NCBI GenBank assembly: GCA_016169945.1
Contig: JADLSH010000293.1
Span: forward strand, 620,001 to 684,000
Origin: Trachythela sp. YZ-2020
Lineage: Eukaryota; Cnidaria; Anthozoa; Malacalcyonacea; Clavulariidae
DNA: 64,000 bases
Direction of reading: 5' to 3'
Shown here one piece after another: positions 24,593 through 45,682 of this stretch (positions within the stretch are counted from its first letter, which is position 1; the number at the start of each line of letters is the position of its first letter). The notes under the pieces were generated by a model. That model saw only the letters and a list, made by a program, of their open reading frames with translations. It was not told the origin of the DNA and made no database searches. Both the position numbers and the translations under genes were made by a program.

Positions 24593-24783
24593 TAAATATC
24601 GCGGCGAAAATATTTTATTGTGTACGTAGCTTTTGCGGAGAGAACTTTACAGAATATATTTGGGACAAATTTCGGTAAGTGCATATTTTTTGTCAATTTA
24701 AGATGTATTAACATGAAGTATTGCAAGGGTAACCATAGCAACTTGAATTTTTTAGTATTATTTTTTGAAAACAATTATTTAGA

Positions 24784-26622
24784 TATGGATTTAGCAGCCA
24801 AAATTGCTGAATGTGAAACTATGACCGAGCTTAATGCTTTGGAAAGAATGTATATTTTATTGAGGCTGAGAAAAGATTGGTTTACGAGAAGAAGCTGGTA
24901 TTGATCAGCCGTTTGCTTGAGTGGGGAAAGGAAAACGAGCAGTTGGGACTTGCTATGAGCATTTCTGATTCTTGGACGCCTGAACAAAGACGACGGTTTT
25001 TACAGGACTGGCAAGACGATGAGCCTTTGGTACAGTTTGGCCGTGGGGGAGAAACGATCTTTCGATGAAGTGAACGATGATGAGAAAAAATTCAAAACGC
25101 AAGGTATGGACTATACAATTAAATTTGCAAATACGTTTGCTCATTTGGAGCTTTCTCAATATCATGATCGCCTTCACGAGATATTTGGGAGCTTATTGAA
25201 TATGGTCACTGGAGAGATACCTATGCACGATCAAGTCCGTTTTGTTTTGCGATCACCTCTGCTTGAAACCCCCATTTCTCTTCCTTTCATGCAACGTCAA
25301 CGACTTACAACTGAGCGGGTTTTAGCTGAAATTGAGCGTGTCATTCAGTCTAATAAGAAATTTCGTTTGAATGATAACAGTGGCGAAGCCAGCTTGAATT
25401 GACTGGTCATGCTTTTATGAACATGGTTAGTTTAACCCGTCCAACTTCCGAGTGCGAAAGGCGCCCTAGGGGGGTCTGGGGGCTCGCCCCCAGAAAAGTT
25501 TTGGTTTTTAAAGCTCGGAAACGCTATTTTCCGCATTCTGAGGGACGTTTAAACGCAAAATTAACCTCATAAAAACACCAAAATTATGACAATTATGACA
25601 ATTTTTAGCATCGACTCTCGCAAGGTTCTTCCTGAAATATCAATTAAAGCATTTTTGGATGATTCAAAATATTGAAGCGTCACACTGCTGTTTTGCTATT
25701 GATATTTCAAACAACTGCAGCTCTGGACTATAAACAAATTGCAACAACAGGTCTGCAACTATTGGTATAACAATAAAAACATTGTCTTGCTACCAACACA
25801 TGGTCAATACACGATCATATTTCACTCTTATTTTTTCAACTTCGCAGCTTACTTAGGGACTGTTGTTACAATTATAAATTACATACCACCATTATGGTTC
25901 TCGTTACCCATATCTAAACTTAAAAATCAGCAAATCACTTATAATATCCGCATCAATAGAAGCAGGATTAGTCACACTTGCTGAAGCCATTCTATAAACG
26001 CGCAAAGACAATATAAATATGATAATTACTCACCTTACACAAGTGTCTTCAGTCGCGCGGAAAGCTCGCTAGGGAAGGCAGTACAAGTCATGCCTTCTCC
26101 AAATAGCATGAGTTCGGCTCAATAAACAGCCGTTTTGAGCATGCGCAAGGCCAGTTATCCAATCAGTATTAAATATTATAGCAGCTCATGCCTTCTGAAA
26201 AGAGCACACGAGTCGCGCGTGAATCGATATATTGCCGGAAATGAATCTTGTAGAACTGCAGTTGCTAGGAAACAGACACAGCAAGAGTCGGCAAGGCTGT
26301 AAAATTGCGTAAATGTAATAGAAAGCGGAAAAATATTAAAAAACAATAATGAAAAATCCAGAAAAATGAGAAGGTTGGATTTTAAAGCTTTGGGATAAAC
26401 AAAGAAATGTTTTAGACGGAACTTGGGCATGACAAGCATGACCGGTAGCTACGCCACTGAATGATGGTGAGAATGTTAATTTAATTCATGTTGAAATGTC
26501 CCAAGAGGGAACCGGCACTAAACGTAGTGAAATTAATTTGGAAAAACATTTGATAAATAAAAGAGCTATTGTTCGGATTCAAAAGGGCGAAAAAGGGGGT
26601 TATACGAATACGAAAATGTAAA
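24784..26622 (+). pseudogene. Polinton DNA polymerase B, N-terminal fragment, split by a hAT element
   Basis: The region from MDLAAKIAECETMTELNALE through SISDSWTPEQRRRFLQDW, YTIKFANTFAHLEL, LLNMVTGEIPMHDQVRF and RVLAEIERVIQSNKKF corresponds to the upstream, non-catalytic part of protein-primed polymerase B genes of cnidarian Polintons as I recognise them. The exonuclease and palm motifs are absent: after the hAT element the frame runs through NVNLIHVEMSQ and SEINLEKHLINKRAIVRIQ (26470-26590) and then leaves the gene. Stops and shifts at about 24903 and 25050 break it. A GTAAGT (about 24676) and TTATTTAG (about 24783) could bound an intron before MDLAAK. An inverted second copy lies at 31547-32230. 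Confidence 0.75.
25378..26459. mobile_element. 1.08-kb non-autonomous hAT element, 8-bp target duplication
   Basis: The ends CAGTGGCGAAGCCAGC and the inverse of GGTAGCTACGCCACTG give the CAGTGGCGTAGC terminus common in hAT elements. The flanks are AATGATAA (25370-25377) and AATGATGG (26460-26467). The uninterrupted inverted copy of the host sequence at 31.6 kb reads AATGATAG there, so each flank has one change or so from the original 8-mer. The inside has GGGGGTCTGGGGGCTCGCCC near 25472 and no transposase. Confidence 0.9.
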
Positions 26623-26950
26623 CATTTTCAGAACAAAATATTGTTGCTATGACACCGCTTTGATTGGCTGCATGCTTAAATTTACAACGGATTAACGTTT
26701 TAGAAAATTTATTTCTTTAAGTATGACAATTCACACAAATAAACAGTTATTAAACATATTGTCCAGCTTTTACACTGTTTTCCAGCTTAGATCACTTAAC
26801 GTTTTGTATATTTCTGTTAAAAAGAAAGCCACATTCTCTAGGGATTACCTCGGGGTTCTCTGGGGGTTCTCTTGGGGTTTCCTGGTGGTTCTCAAGGGGT
26901 TCTCTAGGGGCTCTCTGGCAGTTCTCTCGGGGTTCTCACATATTTAGCAA
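26623..26950. repeat. left inner arm of the inverted repeat, ending in a GGGGTTCTC array
   Basis: This block (TTTGATTGGCTGCATGC near 26658, TATTGTCCAGCTTTTACAC near 26757) is matched in inverted form by 28685-28976. Its last 110 bases are ten-odd copies of GGGGTTCTCT with variants. Confidence 0.85.
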
Positions 26951-27079
26951 GCTAGTACCGTAGAAGTAATCATTAACGGGACCTTGCTGCGGGACATATT
27001 TTGCAGGTCCAGGCGTCCCTTGCGTCCCGTTTGAACGATTCGCTAGGCATCTTTCTCGCTCGCCCCGTTAAAGAAAAAA

Positions 27080-27850
27080 AAGTGGAGGTTCTCATCGAAA
27101 CCGTACTGATTTTTAGAGTAAAATATCGCTACCGGTAAACAGCTTTGGTTGACTGCATGTCTGAATTAACACAAACGGATTAACATTTTAAACAAATTTA
27201 TTCCTTTAAATATAACAATTTTACAGAAATAAACAGTGATTAAGTATATTGTCCAGCTTAGAACGTTTGACTTTGTAAACATTTCCTCTGTTAGCAAAAG
27301 TTTACGTTTCTGTCCCTTACGTGCTATGGGCTGAGCAGAAATGTGTAAGATATGGTTTATTGAGATTACAGCCGAACAGGGCTGCTCTAAACATCTGCTC
27401 TTACGGAACACAAGGGACTTCATTGCGGGACTGTTTTTAAATATGCTTCTGGCTTACACCGTTTCAGGAGAAAAGTAACTGATCAAACAATTTGACTGTG
27501 GCAGTTGCTTTATTTTAACAGATTTATTATTAATGATAATGTAATTCATTTTTCAATTGATAATGTACGCCAGTATCATCACCATCATCACCATCAAAAG
27601 GGCAAAAAAGGGGGTTAGGCGAACGCGAAAATGTATACATTTTTAGAGGAAAATATGAGTAATTAGCGCCGCTTGGAAGCATGCATAAGTAAACAAGACA
27701 AGGCTTATGTTTTTGTATACTTTTTTGCTTAAAAGTAATTACAACAGTACAATGACAATATTAGAGCTGTATTAATAAATGTTCTTAAATATATTGTCCA
27801 ACTTTTACAGTATTTTCTAGTTTCGGGCGTAGAACTGTATGGGTTTAGTT
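27080..27850. repeat. two further diverged copies of the arm segment
   Basis: 27135-27260 and 27595-27830 repeat the arm in direct orientation: GGCGAAAAAGGGGGTTA-like start, a GCATGC block and TATATTGTCCARCTTTTACA. Thus the segment exists four times in 2.4 kb, three direct and one inverted. Confidence 0.65.
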
Positions 27851-28144
27851 AAGCTGTAATTCTATGGTCGCAGGTGCAAGTCATGTTTAGGAGAGATTGT
27901 TTTTATGATAAAAAATGGCTCGTGGCGAGAGTCGTTGGTACTCATTTATGGGACATATTTAGCAAGGCCCGTAGAAGTGCTCATTTACGGGACCTTGTTG
28001 CGGGACGTGTTTAGGCATGTCTCGACGTCCCTTGCGTTCCGTTTGAACGAATTGCTAGCCATCTTTTTGCGGACATAATTTCAGGAATGTAGGACTTTTT
28101 CTTGCGGGACTGTTTTTAAAGAGGCGAAATTAGAAGTAAAACTC

Positions 28145-28737
28145 AGTGTGCAGTATGCAACGAAGGCGAAGAGATTGTCCAGAAGATATCGAACCATTTA
28201 GCAGACATGCATCGACTCTCCCGCGAAGATAGGCAGCAATACCTTTCTCAAGCCAGATCACTTAGTGATCAAAGAGAGTCTGACTGTGAAGAAATGCCCA
28301 GTCGAAAAATAATTCGATATGAGTCGAATGACGAAATGTCAACAGTATCCAATGAAGATAATTTCAGTTCATCTGACGTGGATGATGGCGAAAGTTCCGA
28401 AGAGATCAACGACTCTGATGACAGCGAAGAGGCTGACCCCTGGGGTGTATTGATACACGAAGCAGGGTCGAAACTTCGCGCAAAGTACAATGAACTTGTA
28501 CAAAGTTTTCAAAATGACGGATCTGGTAAAATTGATGCAAAGAAACAGGCCTTTTCAGAAATTCTACCAAAACTTCAAAAGGAATTGGGAAATGTTTATT
28601 TGGATCGCCTGCAATGGATGTCGCAAACGAAAAAGGACCCAGTGCATAAAAAGATTATGGAAACTAGAAACCCATTATGTGATTATGTGAGAACCCCAAG
28701 AGAACCCCCATGCAGAGAACCCCGAGGTAACCCCTAG
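28145..28737 (+). pseudogene. zinc-finger plus helical acidic protein, Polinton-associated, unknown function
   Basis: In the frame of ATG 28207, coding similarity begins upstream: QCAVCNEGEE...ISNHLADMHRL is a Cys2-His2-like finger (C-x2-C, H-x4-H) followed by SREDRQQYLSQARSL. Then comes a Ser/Asp/Glu-rich linker (to about residue 80 from the ATG) and a helical domain that starts at DPWGVLIHEAG and contains LPKLQKELGNVYLDRLQWM and KDPVHKKIMETRNPL. The helical domain matches the minus-strand gene at 43173-43550, and the finger matches the N-terminus of the ATPase at 43936. The 3' end runs into the GGGGTTCTC repeat (VRTPREPPCREPRG), so the C-terminus is lost. An in-frame TAA precedes the finger with no ATG between, so an upstream exon or loss of the start is likely. 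Confidence 0.7.
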
Positions 28738-28976
28738 AGAATGTGGCTTTCTTTTTAACAGAAATATACAAAACGTCAAGTGATCTAAGCTGGAAAACAG
28801 TGTAAAAGCTGAACAATATATTTAATAACCGTTTATTTGTGTAAATTGTCATACTTAAAGAAATAAATTTTCTAAAACGTTAATCCGTTGTAAATTTATG
28901 CATGCAGCCAATCAAAGCGGTGTCCTAGCAACAATATTTTGTTCTGAAAATGTATCATTTTCGTATTCGTGTAACC
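28685..28976. repeat. right inner arm of the inverted repeat
   Basis: Inverted copy of 26623-26900, broken at 28976 by the next element and continued at 31482. Identity by eye is about 93-95 percent. Confidence 0.85.
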
Positions 28977-29484
28977 CACTGATATGTACTAAGACTGGAT
29001 AGAGCATCGTAATACAGAGCCCTAATAGCAATTGAAGCCGGAAGTGAGTCGTGTTTCGAGAGCGGCGGCCATGTGATCTAGTATTTCAAGAACAAGCAAT
29101 CATCATAGAAGTATGAAGAACATTTGAATGTTGAAAGAAACTAAATCTTAAGTAAATAATTTGATATTTTGATCACCGATTTTGACGAAATGTCAGAGCT
29201 CGGCGACTGACCGTCCGAACACATCACTACGCTCTAGAGATTACAATGTAATTCAATTCTTTTTGTATAATAAAACAATCAGTTACTACTTAGAGTAATG
29301 CAGCACTAATTGTTAAACTTTTTGAGCCAGTAGGTAGGTTTAATAAGCGTGCGCGAGGCCAATTTGCAGTTCATACATTACTGTGATTTGAATTTTAGAC
29401 ATGACATATTTGTTGATGGCCAAGCCTTAGTTTGAAAGTATTTCGGTTCTTTGAACCTTTCATGTTGGCTAGCTGAGTACAATA

Positions 29485-29572
29485 CAAATATGCCAGACAA
29501 AGCGAAATTTCTAAATCCTCTAATTTCTAAGGGTAGCGGTTTTTTTGAGACACCCTGTATACTGTCCTATTG
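29485..29572. repeat. right half of a CAGGGTGT MITE plus 15 bases of foreign flank
   Basis: This segment matches 23605-23692 almost base for base, including 15 bases beyond the MITE end (TATACTGTCCTATTG). The left half is missing. Confidence 0.85.
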
Positions 29573-30368
29573 AACAAGACAATACAAATGTGAAGATTGT
29601 GAATGTTTTGAAGCCTCATAAATCAATTATCAAGAGTCAATATGCAAGTCTAGAAATTGCTGTTGACACTATCGTTGTTCTGTTAAATTATTTCATTAAA
29701 GATCTTTAACAACTCAAATGTTGTTGTTGTTGCCTTCACCAGAAAGGTTTCAGGTCAGACTCCAGATTTCAAAATTTCCCCTAGAATATATCTAGCCCCC
29801 TCCCCTAGAATTTGGCTAGCCTTCCCAATCAAACCCATCTTCTGCCACTACTGGATCAGAGTGTTGTGCATTTGACTGTTCAAAATTAATAAAATTGGGA
29901 GATAAAACTGAAAGGAATAATAAATAAACCAACATTTTCAAGAACATATCATTAGCAAGTAGTTTTAATATCCAAAAAAATGAGCATCAATTGTAGCAAT
30001 TAAGTCTTGCATCTTTATTTGATCAGTATTAATATTCACAAGACAGTTTATTTCTCAAATTTGAAAGTAACAAATAATAATAATAATAATATTGCTTTAT
30101 TCACAGTATATCTACAAAGTAGTTCTTCATCTGTGAAGGTTACAATAAATATTAGTAATATATATAAATAGAATAGGAATTTTGTAAAAACATTAAACTA
30201 GGATAATTATACACATGCGATTAGTTATGATTATTTTTTGCTTCATTTGGCAGTAATATTTTAGTATCTTTAGAAACATGAAAATAATCAGTACAATTCC
30301 AAATTAGAAGAGTCCAGAAGAAACTCCCCAGCCATGAGTGCTGCAATATTCGTGACCCTGATTCTGTC

Positions 30369-30719
30369 TTCCCAATTCCTGCAATAAAAGAAAAGGACAA
30401 TTTATATAGAGCCTCACAGAGCATCCTTAATGTTTGTGAAAAAGAGTGAAAAATGCTTTCAAAGAATGCTGGCAACAACTGCTGGAAAACTTCCTCATTG
30501 TAAAGACATTGTTGATACAATTGTTACATTTGTTCTGGGTGCTCTAAATGTTTCATCATTATAATATTCACAGAACTAGATGACTACATGTATGACCCCA
30601 CAATAAACGATAACTTGTTTAAGGAAATTGTCAAGTGCTATTGCAATGGCAAGGAAACCACAGCAAATTTATCCCACAAAATCCGAAACAAGTTAAGCAA
30701 TTTGGTTCTTTTCAACTAG
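30369..30719 (+). pseudogene. unrecognised coding remnant inside the 2.5-kb transposon
   Basis: Three frames in sequence look protein-like: FPIPAIKEKDNLYRASQSIL, then after a shift CFQRMLATTAGKLPHCKDIV and TFVLGALNV, then FTELDDYMYDPTINDNLF to KEIVKCYCNGKETTANLSHK and a TAG at 30717. Segments are compatible with one polypeptide broken by two indels. Its place near the 3' side of the element suggests the end of its transposase. I do not recognise the family. Confidence 0.4.
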
Positions 30720-31546
30720 CAATAAATGTTATCTGATTGAGCTCTTCAGACAGTTCCCTAGCTGAGCTTATGAGTTTAGATACAACCACCAAATGCAACA
30801 AAAGCAGGAAACTGCCAACAAATTGGTAAAAAGATACAATTCCTGGCATCAATGTATAAACAGCACAGCCACAGATTAAAGGATTTGTTATATGATTCAA
30901 ATATAAACTCATTCCAACACTTACGGTACTAACAGAATAGTAGAATTATATTTTGACAACCATAACATAAATATTCAAAACTTACCACAGCAACTTGTCG
31001 GCATAATCGCCGTTGTAACCATTTAAGTTAGTCAAGTTTGCGAAGTAAATATTCAGATTTGTCGCTGGACGTTTGTACTCTGAGTCTGTATTATATTGTT
31101 AACTAAATGGTCCAACGTTTAAATATCATATAATCCTTCTCCTGTTGACCTCCATTGACGAGTCTGTTTTATATCTTCACTCATGGCACCCGTTAACACG
31201 ACGCAAAACATTCGTTTTCTCTGCGATTCAGGGTTAAAAAACTTCAAATTTACTTTTCGAGACATTCATGATGCATATTCTTTTCCTGAGACAAGGTTTG
31301 TTAAGGTCCAAGAAGAGAAACAAGCGTTTTAAAACGAAAACTACAAATTCCGCAATAGAAATATATAGAAATCTGCTGCCATCTGGGGCTGACAAACATG
31401 GCGGCCGCTCTCAAACACGACTCATTTCCGGCTTCAACTCTAAACAATAGATGCACTATCCAGTCTTAGTACATATCAGTGGTATAACCCCCTTTTTCGC
31501 CCTTTTGAATCCGAACAATAGCTCTTTTATTGATAAAATATTTTTC

Positions 31547-32230
31547 CTAATTAATTTCACTACGTTTAGTGTCGGTTCCCCCTTGGGGCATTTCAACATG
31601 AATTAAATTAACATTCACACTATCATTCAAATGAAATTCCTTATTAGACTGAATGACACGCTCAATTTCAGCTAAAACCCGCTCAGTTGTAAGTCGTTGA
31701 CGTTGCATGAAAGGAAGAGAAATGAGGGTTTCAAGCAGAGGTGATCGCAAAAAAAAACGGACTTGATCGTGCATAGGTATCTCTCCAGTGACCATATTCA
31801 ATAAGCTCCCAAATATCTCGTGAAGGCGATCATGATATCGAGAAAGCTCCAAATGAGCAAACGTATTTGCAAATTGAATTGTATAGTCCATACCTTGGGT
31901 TTTGAATTTTTTCACATCATCGTTCATTTCATCGAAAGATATTTTCTCCCGACGGCCAAACTGTACCAAAGGCTCATTGTCTTGCCAGTCCTGTAAAAAC
32001 CGTCGTCTTTGTTCAGGCGTCCAAGAATCAGAAATGCTCATAGCAAGTCCCAACTGCTCTTTCTCCTTTCCCCACTCAACCAAACGGTTGATCAATTCCA
32101 GCTTTGTCGTAAACCAATCTTTTCTCAGCCTCAGTCAAAAAAGACTCAAAATATACATGCTTTCCAAAGCATTAAGCTCAATTTTCGCTGCTAAATCCAC
32201 ATCTAAATAATTGTTTTCAAAAAATTATAC
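31547..32230 (-). pseudogene. Polinton DNA polymerase B N-terminal fragment, inverted copy
   Basis: A 182-codon minus-strand frame parallels the copy at 24784-26622: SISDSWTPEQRRRFLQDWQD, MDYTIQFANTFAHLEL, MVTGEIPMHDQVRFFLRS and NLIHVEMPQGGTDTKRSEIN. It has no hAT insertion and so shows the original join. The start region (about 32095-32190) is disturbed by a short insertion relative to the other copy. It ends at a stop in SEIN just before the sequence that pairs with the left arm. Catalytic polymerase motifs are missing here too. Confidence 0.75.
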
Positions 32231-32319
32231 TAAAAAATTCAAGTTGCTATGGTTACCCCTTGCAATACTTCATGTTAATACATCTTAAATTGACAAAAAA
32301 TATACACTTACCGAAATTT

Positions 32320-32401
32320 GTCCCAAATATATTCCGTAAAGTTCTCTCCGCAAAAGCTACGTCCCAAATATATTCTGTAAAGTTCTCTCCGTAAAAGCTA
32401 C
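32320..32401. repeat. 41-bp tandem duplication
   Basis: GTCCCAAATATATTC...AGCTAC is present twice head to tail (32320-32360 and 32361-32401), with changes near CCGTAAA/CTGTAAA and CGCAAAA/CGTAAAA. The left arm has a single copy (about 24616-24660), so the duplication arose after the arms separated. Confidence 0.85.
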
Positions 32402-32538
32402 GTACACAATAAAATGTACAACCTTCACAGATTATACTTAATACACGTCTAGGGTCACAACTCATTAATCTTTATGACGTCACTCCTCCTGTGATACCTT
32501 TGTGACGTCATCACTCTAAACATACCTGAATACTAAAC

Positions 32539-42386: not shown

Positions 42387-42600
42387 AATTTGTCCCAAAA
42401 ACGTCTATAAAGCCAATGTTGTTTGCTCTATGCGGTTTTTTTTGGTGCTAAAATAGCGCCTCTTTCATCAGCGAAAGTGCTTAATTTACACCCTTTATAA
42501 TGCTAAATAATGGGTGCTATTTTGAAACGATCAAAAGTGTTAACATAGCCCACTAGAGGTGATAAATTAACACGATTTTTAGGGTTAAATATATTATGGG

Positions 42601-43153
42601 AGTAGCTTATCCTGCCTAACCAGCAGAATTTTCCCGCCATATGACGTCAGCAACGTACATCGATCGTAATTTTCCCGCCATATGACGTCATTTGCGTACA
42701 TCCAGCACCGGAAGTAATTAGTATTCATACGCCTGGAAGTAAGAATAATGAGGTGACGTAACGTAAAGCGTTGCGTAATATAAAGCGTTGCGTAACATAA
42801 AACGTTGCGTAACGTTTAAATATTAATAGCGTTGCGTAACATAAAACGTTGCGTAACGTTTAAATATTAATAGCGGTGCGTAACATCCATACCGAGAATA
42901 TAAATTCAGGACATAGATGTATTCATACGTCACGCCTGGAAGTAAGAATAATAATGAGGTGACGTACCCTCTGAGGTGTGAAAAGTTTCGCACGACGCTG
43001 TACGGAATGTTTGTTGTCGAGAAATAAATAACAACAGAGAGTTTTGTGTTGGATTTTATTTAAATTACACAGAACAATTTAAATGTTTCTCTTAATAAGT
43101 TTTGGCTTTATTGTTCGATAGCCATGGTTTCTTTAACAAAGTCTCGGACCGTA
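42601..43153. repeat. left terminal inverted repeat, including an ATPase 3' end
   Basis: From the tip: two TTTTCCCGCC (42629, 42670), each followed by ATGACGTCA (42641, 42682), then the 19-mer CGGAAGTAATTAGTATTCA. Next are six GTTGCGTAAC-like words (42768-42885), an extra 120-base partial duplication, and 43005-43153, which is the inverse of the ATPase 3' end. On the minus strand this part reads TVRDFVKETMAIEQ and a stop, compare TVRAFAKETMAIEQ at the real gene. Confidence 0.85.
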
Positions 43154-43172
43154 TTAGACCGCTTGACCGAGT

Positions 43173-43550
43173 TTAATCATCGCTTTCTGCGTCATCATCT
43201 TCCTCAACAAAATCGTAATCCTTTAAAAGTCTTTTTATAAGACATTTCCTCTTATCAATAGCAGCTTCTAAAGCTTCTTCTGGATCAAAGTCATCGCTTT
43301 CCACAAGCGCATCCTTTGTCTTCATTATTTTTCTATGTACGGGATCTTTCTTTAGTTGTTTCATCCACAGAAGACGTTGTATATAAATATTTTCAAGTTC
43401 CTTCTGGAGTTCAGGCAGAATATTGGTGTAAGCTTTGTCGGTAGCAGATTGCTCATCAAGACCGCTGTTTACAAGGCTCTCTTTCATTTCCTCAAAAGCT
43501 GTATTGCTTCTTTGCTTTGCTTCTTCTATCATTGGTATCCAAGGATCCAT
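43173..43550 (-). CDS. small helical acidic protein of the Polinton-like element
   Basis: The ATG at 43550 gives 125 residues: DPWIPMIEEAKQRSN, LPELQKELENIYIQRLLWMK, LKKDPVHRKIMKTKDALVE, a helical basic part (IDKRKCLIKRLLKDYDFV) and an acidic tail EEDDDAESDD. The first 90 residues match the second half of the gene at 28145-28737. Upstream the same frame stays open for another 40 codons (ENNLAAVSEDEVS...ESETEEAEE), matching the acidic linker of that gene, and then meets a TGA. So the original protein was probably longer and included the finger. Transcribed away from the ATPase and ending in the left terminal repeat. No enzymatic motif; a DNA- or partner-binding role is a guess. Confidence 0.65.
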   Translation of the reverse strand: MDPWIPMIEEAKQRSNTAFEEMKESLVNSGLDEQSATDKAYTNILPELQKELENIYIQRLLWMKQLKKDPVHRKIMKTKDALVESDDFDPEEALEAAIDKRKCLIKRLLKDYDFVEEDDDAESDD

Positions 43551-43935
43551 TTCTTCTGCTTCTTCAGTTTCTGACTCATTATCAGACCCATGAGTTGTCG
43601 AAACCTCGTCTTCGGAAACCGCGGCTAAATTGTTTTCCGCAAAATTTGCAGCTCATTCCGTTACCACTGACTGTCCAGAAATGACTTGCTATTGAGCAGC
43701 ACGGCACTTTTATGAGCATGTCGTCAACAGAGAGAAAATAAAGAATAGCAGAGAGTTAGTTTTATCTTTTTATTTTACTTCCTTTCCTGCCTGTTTGGTC
43801 TTTTTGTCCTGTTTGGCTTTTTTGGCCTGTTTGGCTTGTTTGGCCTATTTGGCTTGTTTGGCTTGTTTGACCTGTCATAAAAATAAAAGATCAGGAGAAA
43901 ACAAATCATTTGCATCTGTTCTTCGAGTTGTAAAC
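43551..43935. promoter_or_regulatory. bidirectional promoter region of the Polinton-like element
   Basis: The 385 bases between the divergent genes should hold both promoters. A TTTGGCCTG/TTTGGCTTG repeat of about nine units fills 43785-43875. It creates an open frame (LACLAYLACLACL) in front of the ATPase, which I regard as non-coding because the zinc finger begins right at the next ATG. Confidence 0.4.
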
Positions 43936-45309
43936 ATGGCTAAACGAGTTTGTCGTGATTGTCCTGTTCCCGATTGCGGTGCGAAATATCTCGTACGATT
44001 GGCGACTCATCTCGCGGATGTACATTTGCTAGATATTAACCAAAGAAGAAAGTACTTGCAAGAAGCCAAACTTCAGCCGAAAGTAAAATTTGTTGTATAC
44101 AAAGCAAATGAAAACAATTTATCGCAACAGCAAGACAGAGTGTATGAATTGTCAGAACCAAAGAGACAACACGTTCTTAAGCAAGCCCAGGTGTCATCAT
44201 GGCAATATCAATCTCCATATCCGGACCCCGAAAATCCAGGAGAAAAACGTGTAAGCCGAAGTGCACACTCATTGCCAGCTAAGAAACCAAAAGCTACAAC
44301 CTCATCTTTAACCACCAAACCCTATCCGGAATTCAAACTCCGCCATAAATTCTCACTTTTGGTTGTGGGTCCGAGTCAAAGTGGAAAAACATATTTTGTC
44401 CAACAAATTTTGGAAAACAATCATATCGTGTACGAAGAGCAAAAAAGTATTCGCATTTTTTGGTACTACAACCAGTGGCAAGAATGTTATGACGTCTTGA
44501 AAAAGTCTCTCGGAAAAAGCATCCGGTTTGAGAGAAGTGTGCCCGAACTGTCTGAGAACAAGAGCGAGATTGATACGCGGTACAACAACATCATCATCCT
44601 GGACGATTTCATGGCTGAAGCGACAGACAGTCCTGTGGTATCTCGATTGTTTACCCAAGGCCGCCATCGAAACGCGAGCGTTATCTTATTGCTGCAAAAC
44701 ATGTTTCCAAAGGGGAAATATAATACGGATATCAGCCGAAATGCCCAATATCTGGCTCTCTTCCGAAGTCCAAGCGATAGGAAACAAATTGGTATTGTTG
44801 GAGAACGCATGTTTGATAATAACAGAATACATTTTATGAACGCTTATTACAAAGAGACCGAAAAACCGTTTGGATACTTATTGGTGGATAACAAGCCTGA
44901 CACACCAACCGATAAGCAAGTTCTTGGAGACCTATTTGGCGACTGCCATGTTTATCCCTTCACCACCCAAACTAAAGTGACTACACCCACACCGGTCGAA
45001 ACCAAGCCGGGAAGAAAACATCATCGGTATATCACCTGGTCGGATGCAACTATCCCAGAGTGGCTAAAATACACCGACAAAGCCGATACCGTTCGTGTCA
45101 TTCCCAAAGGATATGCTATCATAGAGATGTATAAATCGTCGCGCAATAGTGTTGATCCTAGCCGTCCGGGTGTCTACAGAAACGGCGAACATTATTGGCC
45201 TGTCAAAATAAGGCACCAATCTACAGGCCATATAAAATGGGTGAATCTGCACGAAGACGAGGCTACGGTCCGAGCCTTTGCTAAAGAAACCATGGCTATC
45301 GAACAATAA
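43936..45309 (+). CDS. FtsK/HerA-type packaging ATPase with N-terminal zinc finger
   Basis: I start at ATG 43936 (457 residues) because the finger begins at once: CRDCPVPDC at 6-14 and HLADVH at 25-30. After a basic, proline-rich linker the ATPase begins near residue 137: Walker A GPSQSGKT (145-152), Walker B IIILDDF with Asp 223 and 224, then FTQGRHRNASVILLLQNMFP and NAQYLALFRSPSDRKQIG, the sensor and arginine-finger region of Polinton, adintovirus and virophage packaging ATPases. In those systems the enzyme pumps DNA into capsids. A C-terminal region of about 110 residues after the domain (ITWSDATIPEWLKY, VYRNGEHYWPVKI) is not usual for the family. No frameshift or stop interrupts it, and all catalytic residues are visible. 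An AATAAA at 45305 overlaps the stop codon. The gene's last 15 codons are in the terminal repeat. Confidence 0.85.
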   Translation: MAKRVCRDCPVPDCGAKYLVRLATHLADVHLLDINQRRKYLQEAKLQPKVKFVVYKANENNLSQQQDRVYELSEPKRQHVLKQAQVSSWQYQSPYPDPENPGEKRVSRSAHSLPAKKPKATTSSLTTKPYPEFKLRHKFSLLVVGPSQSGKTYFVQQILENNHIVYEEQKSIRIFWYYNQWQECYDVLKKSLGKSIRFERSVPELSENKSEIDTRYNNIIILDDFMAEATDSPVVSRLFTQGRHRNASVILLLQNMFPKGKYNTDISRNAQYLALFRSPSDRKQIGIVGERMFDNNRIHFMNAYYKETEKPFGYLLVDNKPDTPTDKQVLGDLFGDCHVYPFTTQTKVTTPTPVETKPGRKHHRYITWSDATIPEWLKYTDKADTVRVIPKGYAIIEMYKSSRNSVDPSRPGVYRNGEHYWPVKIRHQSTGHIKWVNLHEDEATVRAFAKETMAIEQ

Positions 45310-45676
45310 AGCCAAAACTATAAAACGACTCTTATTAGAAGAAACATTTAAATTGTTCTGTGTAATTTAAATAAAATCCAACACAAAACTCTCTGTTGTT
45401 ATTTATTTCTCGACAACAAACATTCCAACGTTTTATGTTACGCAACGCTATTAATATTTAAACGTTGCGCAACGTTTTATGTTACGCAACGCTTTATGTT
45501 ACGCAACGCTTTACGTTACGTCACCTCATTATTCTTACTTCCAGGCGTATGAATACTAATTACTTCCGGTGCTGGATGTACGCAAATGACGTCATATGGC
45601 GGGAAAATTATGATGGATGTACGTTGCTGACCCCATATGGCGGGAAAATTCTGCTGGTTAGGCAGGATAAGCTACT
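45265..45676. repeat. right terminal inverted repeat
   Basis: Inverse of the left repeat without its 120-base internal duplication. Two GGCGGGAAAA words lie at 45598 and 45639. The first pairs with an intact TGACGTCA (45587); the second CRE has decayed to TGACCCCA. The inner part includes the end of the ATPase gene and its poly(A) signals. Confidence 0.9.
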
Positions 45677-45682
45677 TATGGG

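Follow-up and report, generated by a model that had tools for sequence, protein, structure and literature searches.

In the current analysis of a 64,000-nucleotide stretch of the genome of the anthozoan Trachythela sp. YZ-2020 (assembly GCA_016169945.1, contig JADLSH010000293.1, positions 620,001 to 684,000; hereafter the window) we have identified a Polinton-like element of 3076 bp (42601-45676), bounded by terminal inverted repeats, as a member of an abundant family of short Polinton satellites. The element encodes a packaging-type ATPase, the core of which is under selective constraint, and the remnant of a smaller partner protein. Sequence comparisons indicate that this ATPase, which is extended at both its N- and its C-terminus, belongs to a lineage of its own, distinct from the ATPase of the full-size elements with similar ends that are the candidate helpers. 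The status of the element as a trans-mobilised Polinton satellite is well supported, the mobilisation itself being presumed. We further propose, with moderate confidence, that the satellite employs its own zinc-finger ATPase for re-aiming the packaging of a helper toward satellite DNA.

Polintons, or Mavericks, are normally 15-20 kb long and encode an integrase, a polymerase B, a protease and capsid proteins. The window element has the 6-bp target-site duplication and the terminal inverted repeats by which this group is recognised. Both of its inverted tips are AGTAGCTTATCCTGCC, of the AGTAG type, and inspection of both ends has confirmed the AG tips and the TATGGG duplication (42595..45682) described in an earlier, sequence-only reading of this DNA. 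The repeat length of 553 bp given in that reading holds for the left arm; the right arm comprises 413 bp. The aligned arms have 10 mismatches in 400 columns (97.5% identity), the difference in length arising from a 152-bp stretch of the left arm that is missing from the right and 13 bp of the right that are missing from the left. The right arm, from 45264, overlaps the 3' end of the ATPase gene, whose stop is at 45309. The left repeat contains tandem repeats of the GTTGCGTAAC type and two motifs TGACGTCA. The TGACGTCA motifs at 42601-42710 and 45570-45676, which we take to be CREB/ATF-like, also occur in helper ends.

Besides the ATPase and the partner, the element contains frames of 72-107 amino acids (aa) only. 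No polymerase B of its own has been found in 42601-45676, where the longest other frame is of 107 aa and the Pfam run covered the two main proteins, and the element has no integrase, protease or capsid gene, no further frame exceeding 107 aa. The description of a complete element of about 3.1 kb is thus correct for ends, duplication and size and needs qualifying because the partner gene is broken in the window copy. Similarly, of the two intact or nearly intact divergent genes that had been reported, the ATPase frame and the divergent layout have been verified and the partner is truncated to 125 aa.

The assembly of the window (578 Mb, 396 contigs) has been searched for further copies; these searches score the best candidates only, so that all counts are lower bounds. 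The 553-bp arm as query yielded 47 matches (best 40 of 1073 candidates scored). Twenty places (L031-L050), two more found by protein (L051 and L052) and the window copy have been read, 23 in all. L035/L036 and L044/L045 share flanks and are each counted once, which leaves 21 independent loci, and an all-against-all comparison of flanks revealed no further loci with shared flanks. Tips were paired at 12 or more equal bases of 16 and the pairs ranked by the fit of the duplication, the best two or three being kept per locus, a selection that makes the calculated chance figure too favourable. Paired AGTAG tips are present in 18 of the 21 loci: 13 have a perfect 6-bp duplication (window, L032-L035, L037-L039, L042, L046, L047, L050 and L052), three a duplication with one mismatch (L040, L041 and L051) and two no duplication (L031 and L044). 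No tip pair is seen in L043, L048 and L049.

Copies with a perfect duplication measure 1.5-4.3 kb. Both genes, variably decayed, occur in 16 of the 18 tipped loci, and ATPase sequence alone in L050 and L041; the copies found by the terminal repeat share this short two-gene form and are not longer elements with differing deletions. A full ATPase frame is encoded in the window copy (457 aa), L032 (421), L037 (462), L051 (461) and L052 (460), and L051 additionally holds a full partner of 185 aa. In a protein search with the ATPase the best 93 of 1930 candidate places were scored; 78 of the 93 are stop-free and 40 are stop-free and nearly full-length, proportions that are not representative of all copies since scoring was confined to the top candidates. 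With the partner the best 150 of 1326 candidates were scored. A scored partner lies within about 3 kb of 53 of the 93 ATPases, always upstream and divergent (53 of 53) at a median distance of 610 bp, and the other 40 may have partners outside the scored set.

The ATPase of the window copy matches the Pfam family Pox_A32 (PF04665) with 31.2 bits, the cut-off being 22.8. Among 61 aligned members 59 match Pox_A32 at E 0.01, and 59 match a terminase family of PHROGs at E 1 (best 7.5e-8). The A32 protein of poxviruses is a packaging ATPase. The motifs GPSQSGKT and ILDD presumably represent Walker A and Walker B. The protein collection contains 540 relatives, and the organisms named among the 120 matches listed are Exaiptasia, Actinostola and Porites, all three of them cnidarian. 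No relative has been identified in viral contigs by the ATPase, the ATPase alignment, a repeat motif, the partner alignment or the polymerase fragment described at the end, nor in prokaryote genome contigs or phage records, and a PDB sequence search with the ATPase gave nothing below E 0.1.

Cys9, Cys14, His25 and His30 of the N-terminal module are invariant across 19 aligned ATPase proteins, and their spacing suggests that the module may act as a zinc finger; it has no Pfam finger match, and the C-terminal part (residues 363-457) has no Pfam match. Identities to the window protein, taken from the 61-row alignment as medians over relatives with enough coverage, are 84% for the core (60 relatives), 54% for the C-terminal part (50 relatives) and 39% for the N-terminal module (40 relatives). 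At least three N-terminal types of the satellite ATPase are encoded in the same genome.

The partner is 185-209 aa long in relatives and in other copies of this genome, with a finger start such as MSCxFCGKQF. In the window copy a finger-like start is readable by eye just upstream in a different frame, and the protein begins at an internal Met. Partner relatives number 365 (120 listed), the longer ones starting with a C2H2-like finger, and zf-C2H2_4 is matched by 19 of 37 at E 0.1. Relatives of the ATPase and of the partner (P0002 and P0121) stand on database contigs of equal length, 13322, which serves as a hint only. The structure model of the partner is helical (predicted template modelling score, pTM, 0.41).

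Ratios of non-synonymous to synonymous divergence (dN/dS) have been computed by the Nei-Gojobori method for the window copy and L031-L050; the two allelic pairs entered with both of their members. The median is 0.255 for the ATPase core (168 pairs), 0.79 for the linker (75 pairs) and 0.40 for the partner (140 pairs), these medians being shifted upward because decayed copies are included; the finger gave 1.0 from 2 pairs only. In the ten pairs formed by the five copies with an intact ATPase the ratio is 0.24-0.39 for the whole gene and 0.11-0.32 for the core, one pair showing zero non-synonymous change in the core; the partner gave 0.22-0.34 in nine of the ten pairs, those with a defined value. 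The uninterrupted motor frame had earlier been read as a hint of selection, and the median of the core, below 1, agrees with that view.

Full-length elements with the same tips have been found in the same genome (C123, C37 and C390). The first 260 bp of the window element as query gave 94 matches (best 40 of 584 candidates scored), which include an inverted pair on C123, 14.6 kb apart, with ends AGTAGCTTATCC and duplication CATCTG. The first 80 bases on C123 equal the left end of the window element at 75 positions and its right end at 73, and a helper-type ATPase, 95% identical to that of C37, is placed by coordinate 1.7 kb inside. The outer repeat of L033, a satellite with layered ends, gave 70 matches (best 40 of 305 candidates scored) including two inverted pairs, 14.25 kb apart on C37 (tip AGTAGATAAGACCCCCC, duplication TAGGAG) and 22.9 kb apart on C390 (tip AGTAGATAATACCCCCC, duplication CACAAC). 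On one end side C37 and C390 encode a plain ATPase of 229 and 214 aa respectively and a protease-like protein, and at the opposite end a DNA polymerase B (DNA_pol_B_2, 88.5 and 44.6 bits). An adjoining cut frame of 329 aa in C37, without Pfam or PHROGs match, may be a candidate capsid gene. Ends common with a full-size element of the same genome are thus present in the family (C123 for the window copy; C37/C390 for L033 and L051).

In the sequence-only reading the satellite was a trans-mobilised Polinton derivative that had kept the packaging motor of its parent. The former part is supported by the short two-gene copies, by dN/dS below 1 and by the full-length elements with the same tips; the latter is not supported, since the full-size elements read (C37 and C390) carry a short plain ATPase. 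That of C37 is 30% identical to the satellite ATPase over 188 aa and is devoid of its N- and C-terminal additions; the satellite protein combines these extra parts with its Pox_A32 match above cut-off.

For 41 of the 70 outer-repeat matches, weak and overlapping ones being omitted, the distance to helper-type ATPases was considered: 16 have one within 20 kb, and 8 of these lie at 11.6-12.6 kb, the distance at which the far end of a full-size element should be found. A genome-wide protein search also revealed polymerase B open frames of about 1220-1420 codons elsewhere in the genome. Among them, a polymerase B on C267, of the same N-terminal type, has a helper-type ATPase 10 kb off and unmatched ends. 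Of the satellite ATPases none (0 of 93), and of the helper-type ones 5 of 150, are located at most 20 kb from one of 76 listed polymerase places; the co-location is not used as proof because these numbers are too few to separate the two ATPase groups.

Other elements related to the helpers have also been observed. A further group of ATPases (20 of 150 scored rows) is 42-46% identical to that of C37, with frames of 226-536 aa. At least three N-terminal types of polymerase B were recognised by eye among eight upstream regions read, which suggests several Polinton-type lineages. L065 (on C296) and L066 (on C334) are non-autonomous elements too; their tips are of the helper type, equal to those of C390 at 30 of 30 bases, and their duplications, GATATT and CACATG, are perfect. 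Both arms of L065 contain a Cys-rich frame of 161 aa. Eight strong outer-repeat matches within 60 kb (C240:1145999-1205304) make up four inverted pairs, with 4-5.5 kb between the members of a pair, and appear to be duplicated elements in an array.

Some of the satellites have layered ends. An inner tip pair AGTAGCTTATCCCGTA, or a close variant, has been identified in five independent loci (L031, L033, L034, L035/L036 and L039), bordered by CCCGAA/TTCGGG that are inverted instead of direct; four of these loci also have an outer tip pair, which L031 is without. In L033 the outer layer and the C37 repeat share 94-95% identity. For L034, L035, L039, L051 and L052 a match to the repeat of C37 or C390 extends over 230-430 columns; for the window copy a match to this type of repeat covers 31 bases. 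Because of these matches, some satellites appear to have gained the outer repeat of a helper at both ends. Between the window copy and L051 the synonymous divergence (dS) is 0.039 for the ATPase and 0.32 for the partner, and between the window copy and L032 it is 0.28 and 0.10 respectively. The two genes thus differ in history, which together with the diverse N-terminal modules suggests shuffling. At one further place, L067 (C230:6056300-6062300), the boundary of a satellite repeat directly adjoins a left end of helper type, whose own ATPase is 91% identical to those of L061/L063; this is apparently a chimera of helper and satellite, and no AGTAG tip pair was found in the 6 kb read there.

In the reading that we favour, the polymerase and integrase of a helper would copy the satellite and integrate it via its AGTAG ends, since these ends match those of full-size elements in the same genome. 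The zinc-finger modules would bind the terminal repeats of the satellite itself, the satellite ATPase would replace or join the helper motor at the portal of the helper capsid, and helper particles would thereby be filled with satellite DNA. DNA binding, docking at the capsid and the steering of packaging are proposed steps, and the window copy would need other copies for the partner protein because its own is broken. A broader form of this proposal, in which a large satellite family with a zinc-finger-guided motor takes over helper capsids, swapping helpers through the outer repeats and its aim through the finger modules, is put forward tentatively, with rather less than an even chance of being right.

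Several points weigh against the packaging role. Packaging, DNA binding and transcription are presumed. The fold model of the ATPase is poor (mean predicted local distance difference test score, pLDDT, 66) and gave nothing at E of 0.001 or below with Foldseek in the viral and PDB libraries; the four best viral rows, at E 0.005-0.016, comprise a packaging ATPase of Gaeavirus, two IVa2 proteins of adenoviruses and one protein without a name. Just five of the 21 loci have a full ATPase frame, and the partner is truncated in the window copy. The median dN/dS is 0.48 for the whole ATPase (170 pairs) and 0.75 for its C-terminal part (107 pairs), and the pairs are non-independent, with decayed copies and allelic pairs among them. 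In 9 of 16 satellites compared there is no stretch matching the C37/C390 ends, and for C123-type ends the comparison covered the window copy alone. As for the helpers, the polymerase is split into several frames in both C37 and C390, their protease-like genes score 19.0 and 20.7 bits with Peptidase_C5, under the cut-off of 21.3, and in the ends read no integrase was seen and no capsid gene was identified.

The element could instead be an ordinary non-autonomous derivative of an old Polinton that had a zinc-finger ATPase, both genes being passengers without a packaging role. The decay of the ATPase frame in most of the 21 loci is consistent with this, as are L065 and L066, non-autonomous elements with helper-type tips that carry neither gene, and the co-location counts (0 of 93 with a weak control of 5 of 150), which leave room for an autonomous carrier. 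The core median of 0.255, the 78 stop-free frames among the 93 ATPases scored, the staying together of ATPase and partner and the different ATPase of C37 and C390, the full-size elements of which the ends were read, speak against passengers, and we consider this explanation unlikely. Decay alone, as a reading of the whole family, has been down-weighted in view of dN/dS and the open frames.

The satellite proteins could also act against the helper, the ATPase serving as a decoy motor subunit that poisons packaging or as a regulator of helper replication. The helper owns a motor already, and a conserved core with a diversified N-terminal module is what a protein meeting changing partners might show; a pure decoy would have no need for the nucleotide-binding core, which is the most conserved part and favours an active motor, so that interference seems to us distinctly improbable. 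A role of both proteins in copying or integration, for example as a repeat-binding DNA pump or loader, and not in capsid packaging, is given very little credence. Cys/His modules are found in both families, whose genes lie between the terminal repeats, and the element is too short for an adjoining capsid gene, all of which would suit such a role; the closest Pfam family is nevertheless that of poxvirus A32 and the PHROGs match is to a terminase.

Virophages and transpovirons exploit larger DNA viruses as parasites or satellites, and virophages encode their own capsid. The proposed parasitism is alike; the satellite described here has no capsid gene, unlike virophages. The phage satellites P4 and phage-inducible chromosomal islands (PICIs) redirect the packaging of their helpers. 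The strategy proposed here, a satellite factor that re-aims helper capsids, would resemble theirs; these systems are bacterial and the likeness proposed is one of strategy. With Polintons/Mavericks the satellite shares the terminal inverted repeats, the 6-bp duplication and a packaging-type ATPase, and differs from them in its size of 3 kb, in having no room for polymerase, protease and capsid genes and in its ATPase, which has additional parts and belongs to another lineage. The tips come close to the repeated-AGT end motif that vertebrate Mavericks possess according to an excerpt of PMC8097293, without being identical to it. In an excerpt of PMC4028283 nine Polintons without capsid genes are stated to have lost the protease and the ATPase too; gene loss within a Polinton framework is common to those elements and the satellite, and the satellite differs in that it has an ATPase and is without the other genes. 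Among the literature matches listed from the single collection searched, in the excerpts available, no report of a Polinton satellite with its own ATPase was found, and no paper on non-autonomous, derived or miniature Polintons/Mavericks was found in the same collection. The excerpt of PMC8097293 describes Polinton particles as deduced from genes and unobserved. If the favoured reading is true, a constrained motor gene without a capsid gene would be indirect evidence that Polinton-type particles exist in animals and are worth parasitising, and the family would be an animal parallel to the packaging parasites of phages.

Table 1. Coordinates of the satellite element, its genes and a related locus in the window
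Feature	Position	Strand	Basis or remark
Left target-site duplication TATGGG	42595..42600	.	sequence
Left terminal inverted repeat, 553 bp, tip AGTAGCTTATCC	42601..43153	+	
Partner, 125-aa remnant of a zinc-finger protein of about 190 aa	43173..43550	-	comparison with longer copies
ATPase, packaging-type, intact, 457 aa from ATG	43936..45309	+	open reading frame, Pfam Pox_A32, 540 relatives
N-terminal zinc-finger-like module	43936..44085	+	Cys/His spacing
ATPase core, residues 126-340	44311..44955	+	Walker A GPSQSGKT, Walker B ILDD
C-terminal part, residues 363-457	45022..45306	+	alignment of relatives
Right terminal inverted repeat, 413 bp	45264..45676	-	holds the final ATPase codons
Right target-site duplication TATGGG	45677..45682	.	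perfect match to left
Related locus, inverted arms 24612-25376/26458-26879 and 28692-28977/31482-32415	24612..32415	.	
Second partner relative	28147..28737	+	sequence comparison within the window

A second, satellite-like locus has also been identified in the window (Table 1). Its inverted arms enclose the second partner relative and are apparently broken by two insertions, of which the right one has CACTG/CAGTG ends and an 8-bp near-duplication and is hAT-like by eye; no target duplication was found by eye at the outer ends of the locus. The first part of its partner relative resembles the N-terminal module of the ATPase (27% over 62 columns), and the remainder is the partner domain (46% over 83 aa). 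An open reading frame in the arms (31547-32095) corresponds to the N-terminal region of a Polinton-type DNA polymerase B. Its relative P0304 continues into DNA_pol_B_2, and the frame itself shares 54% identity with an open frame located upstream of a polymerase B gene in the genome.

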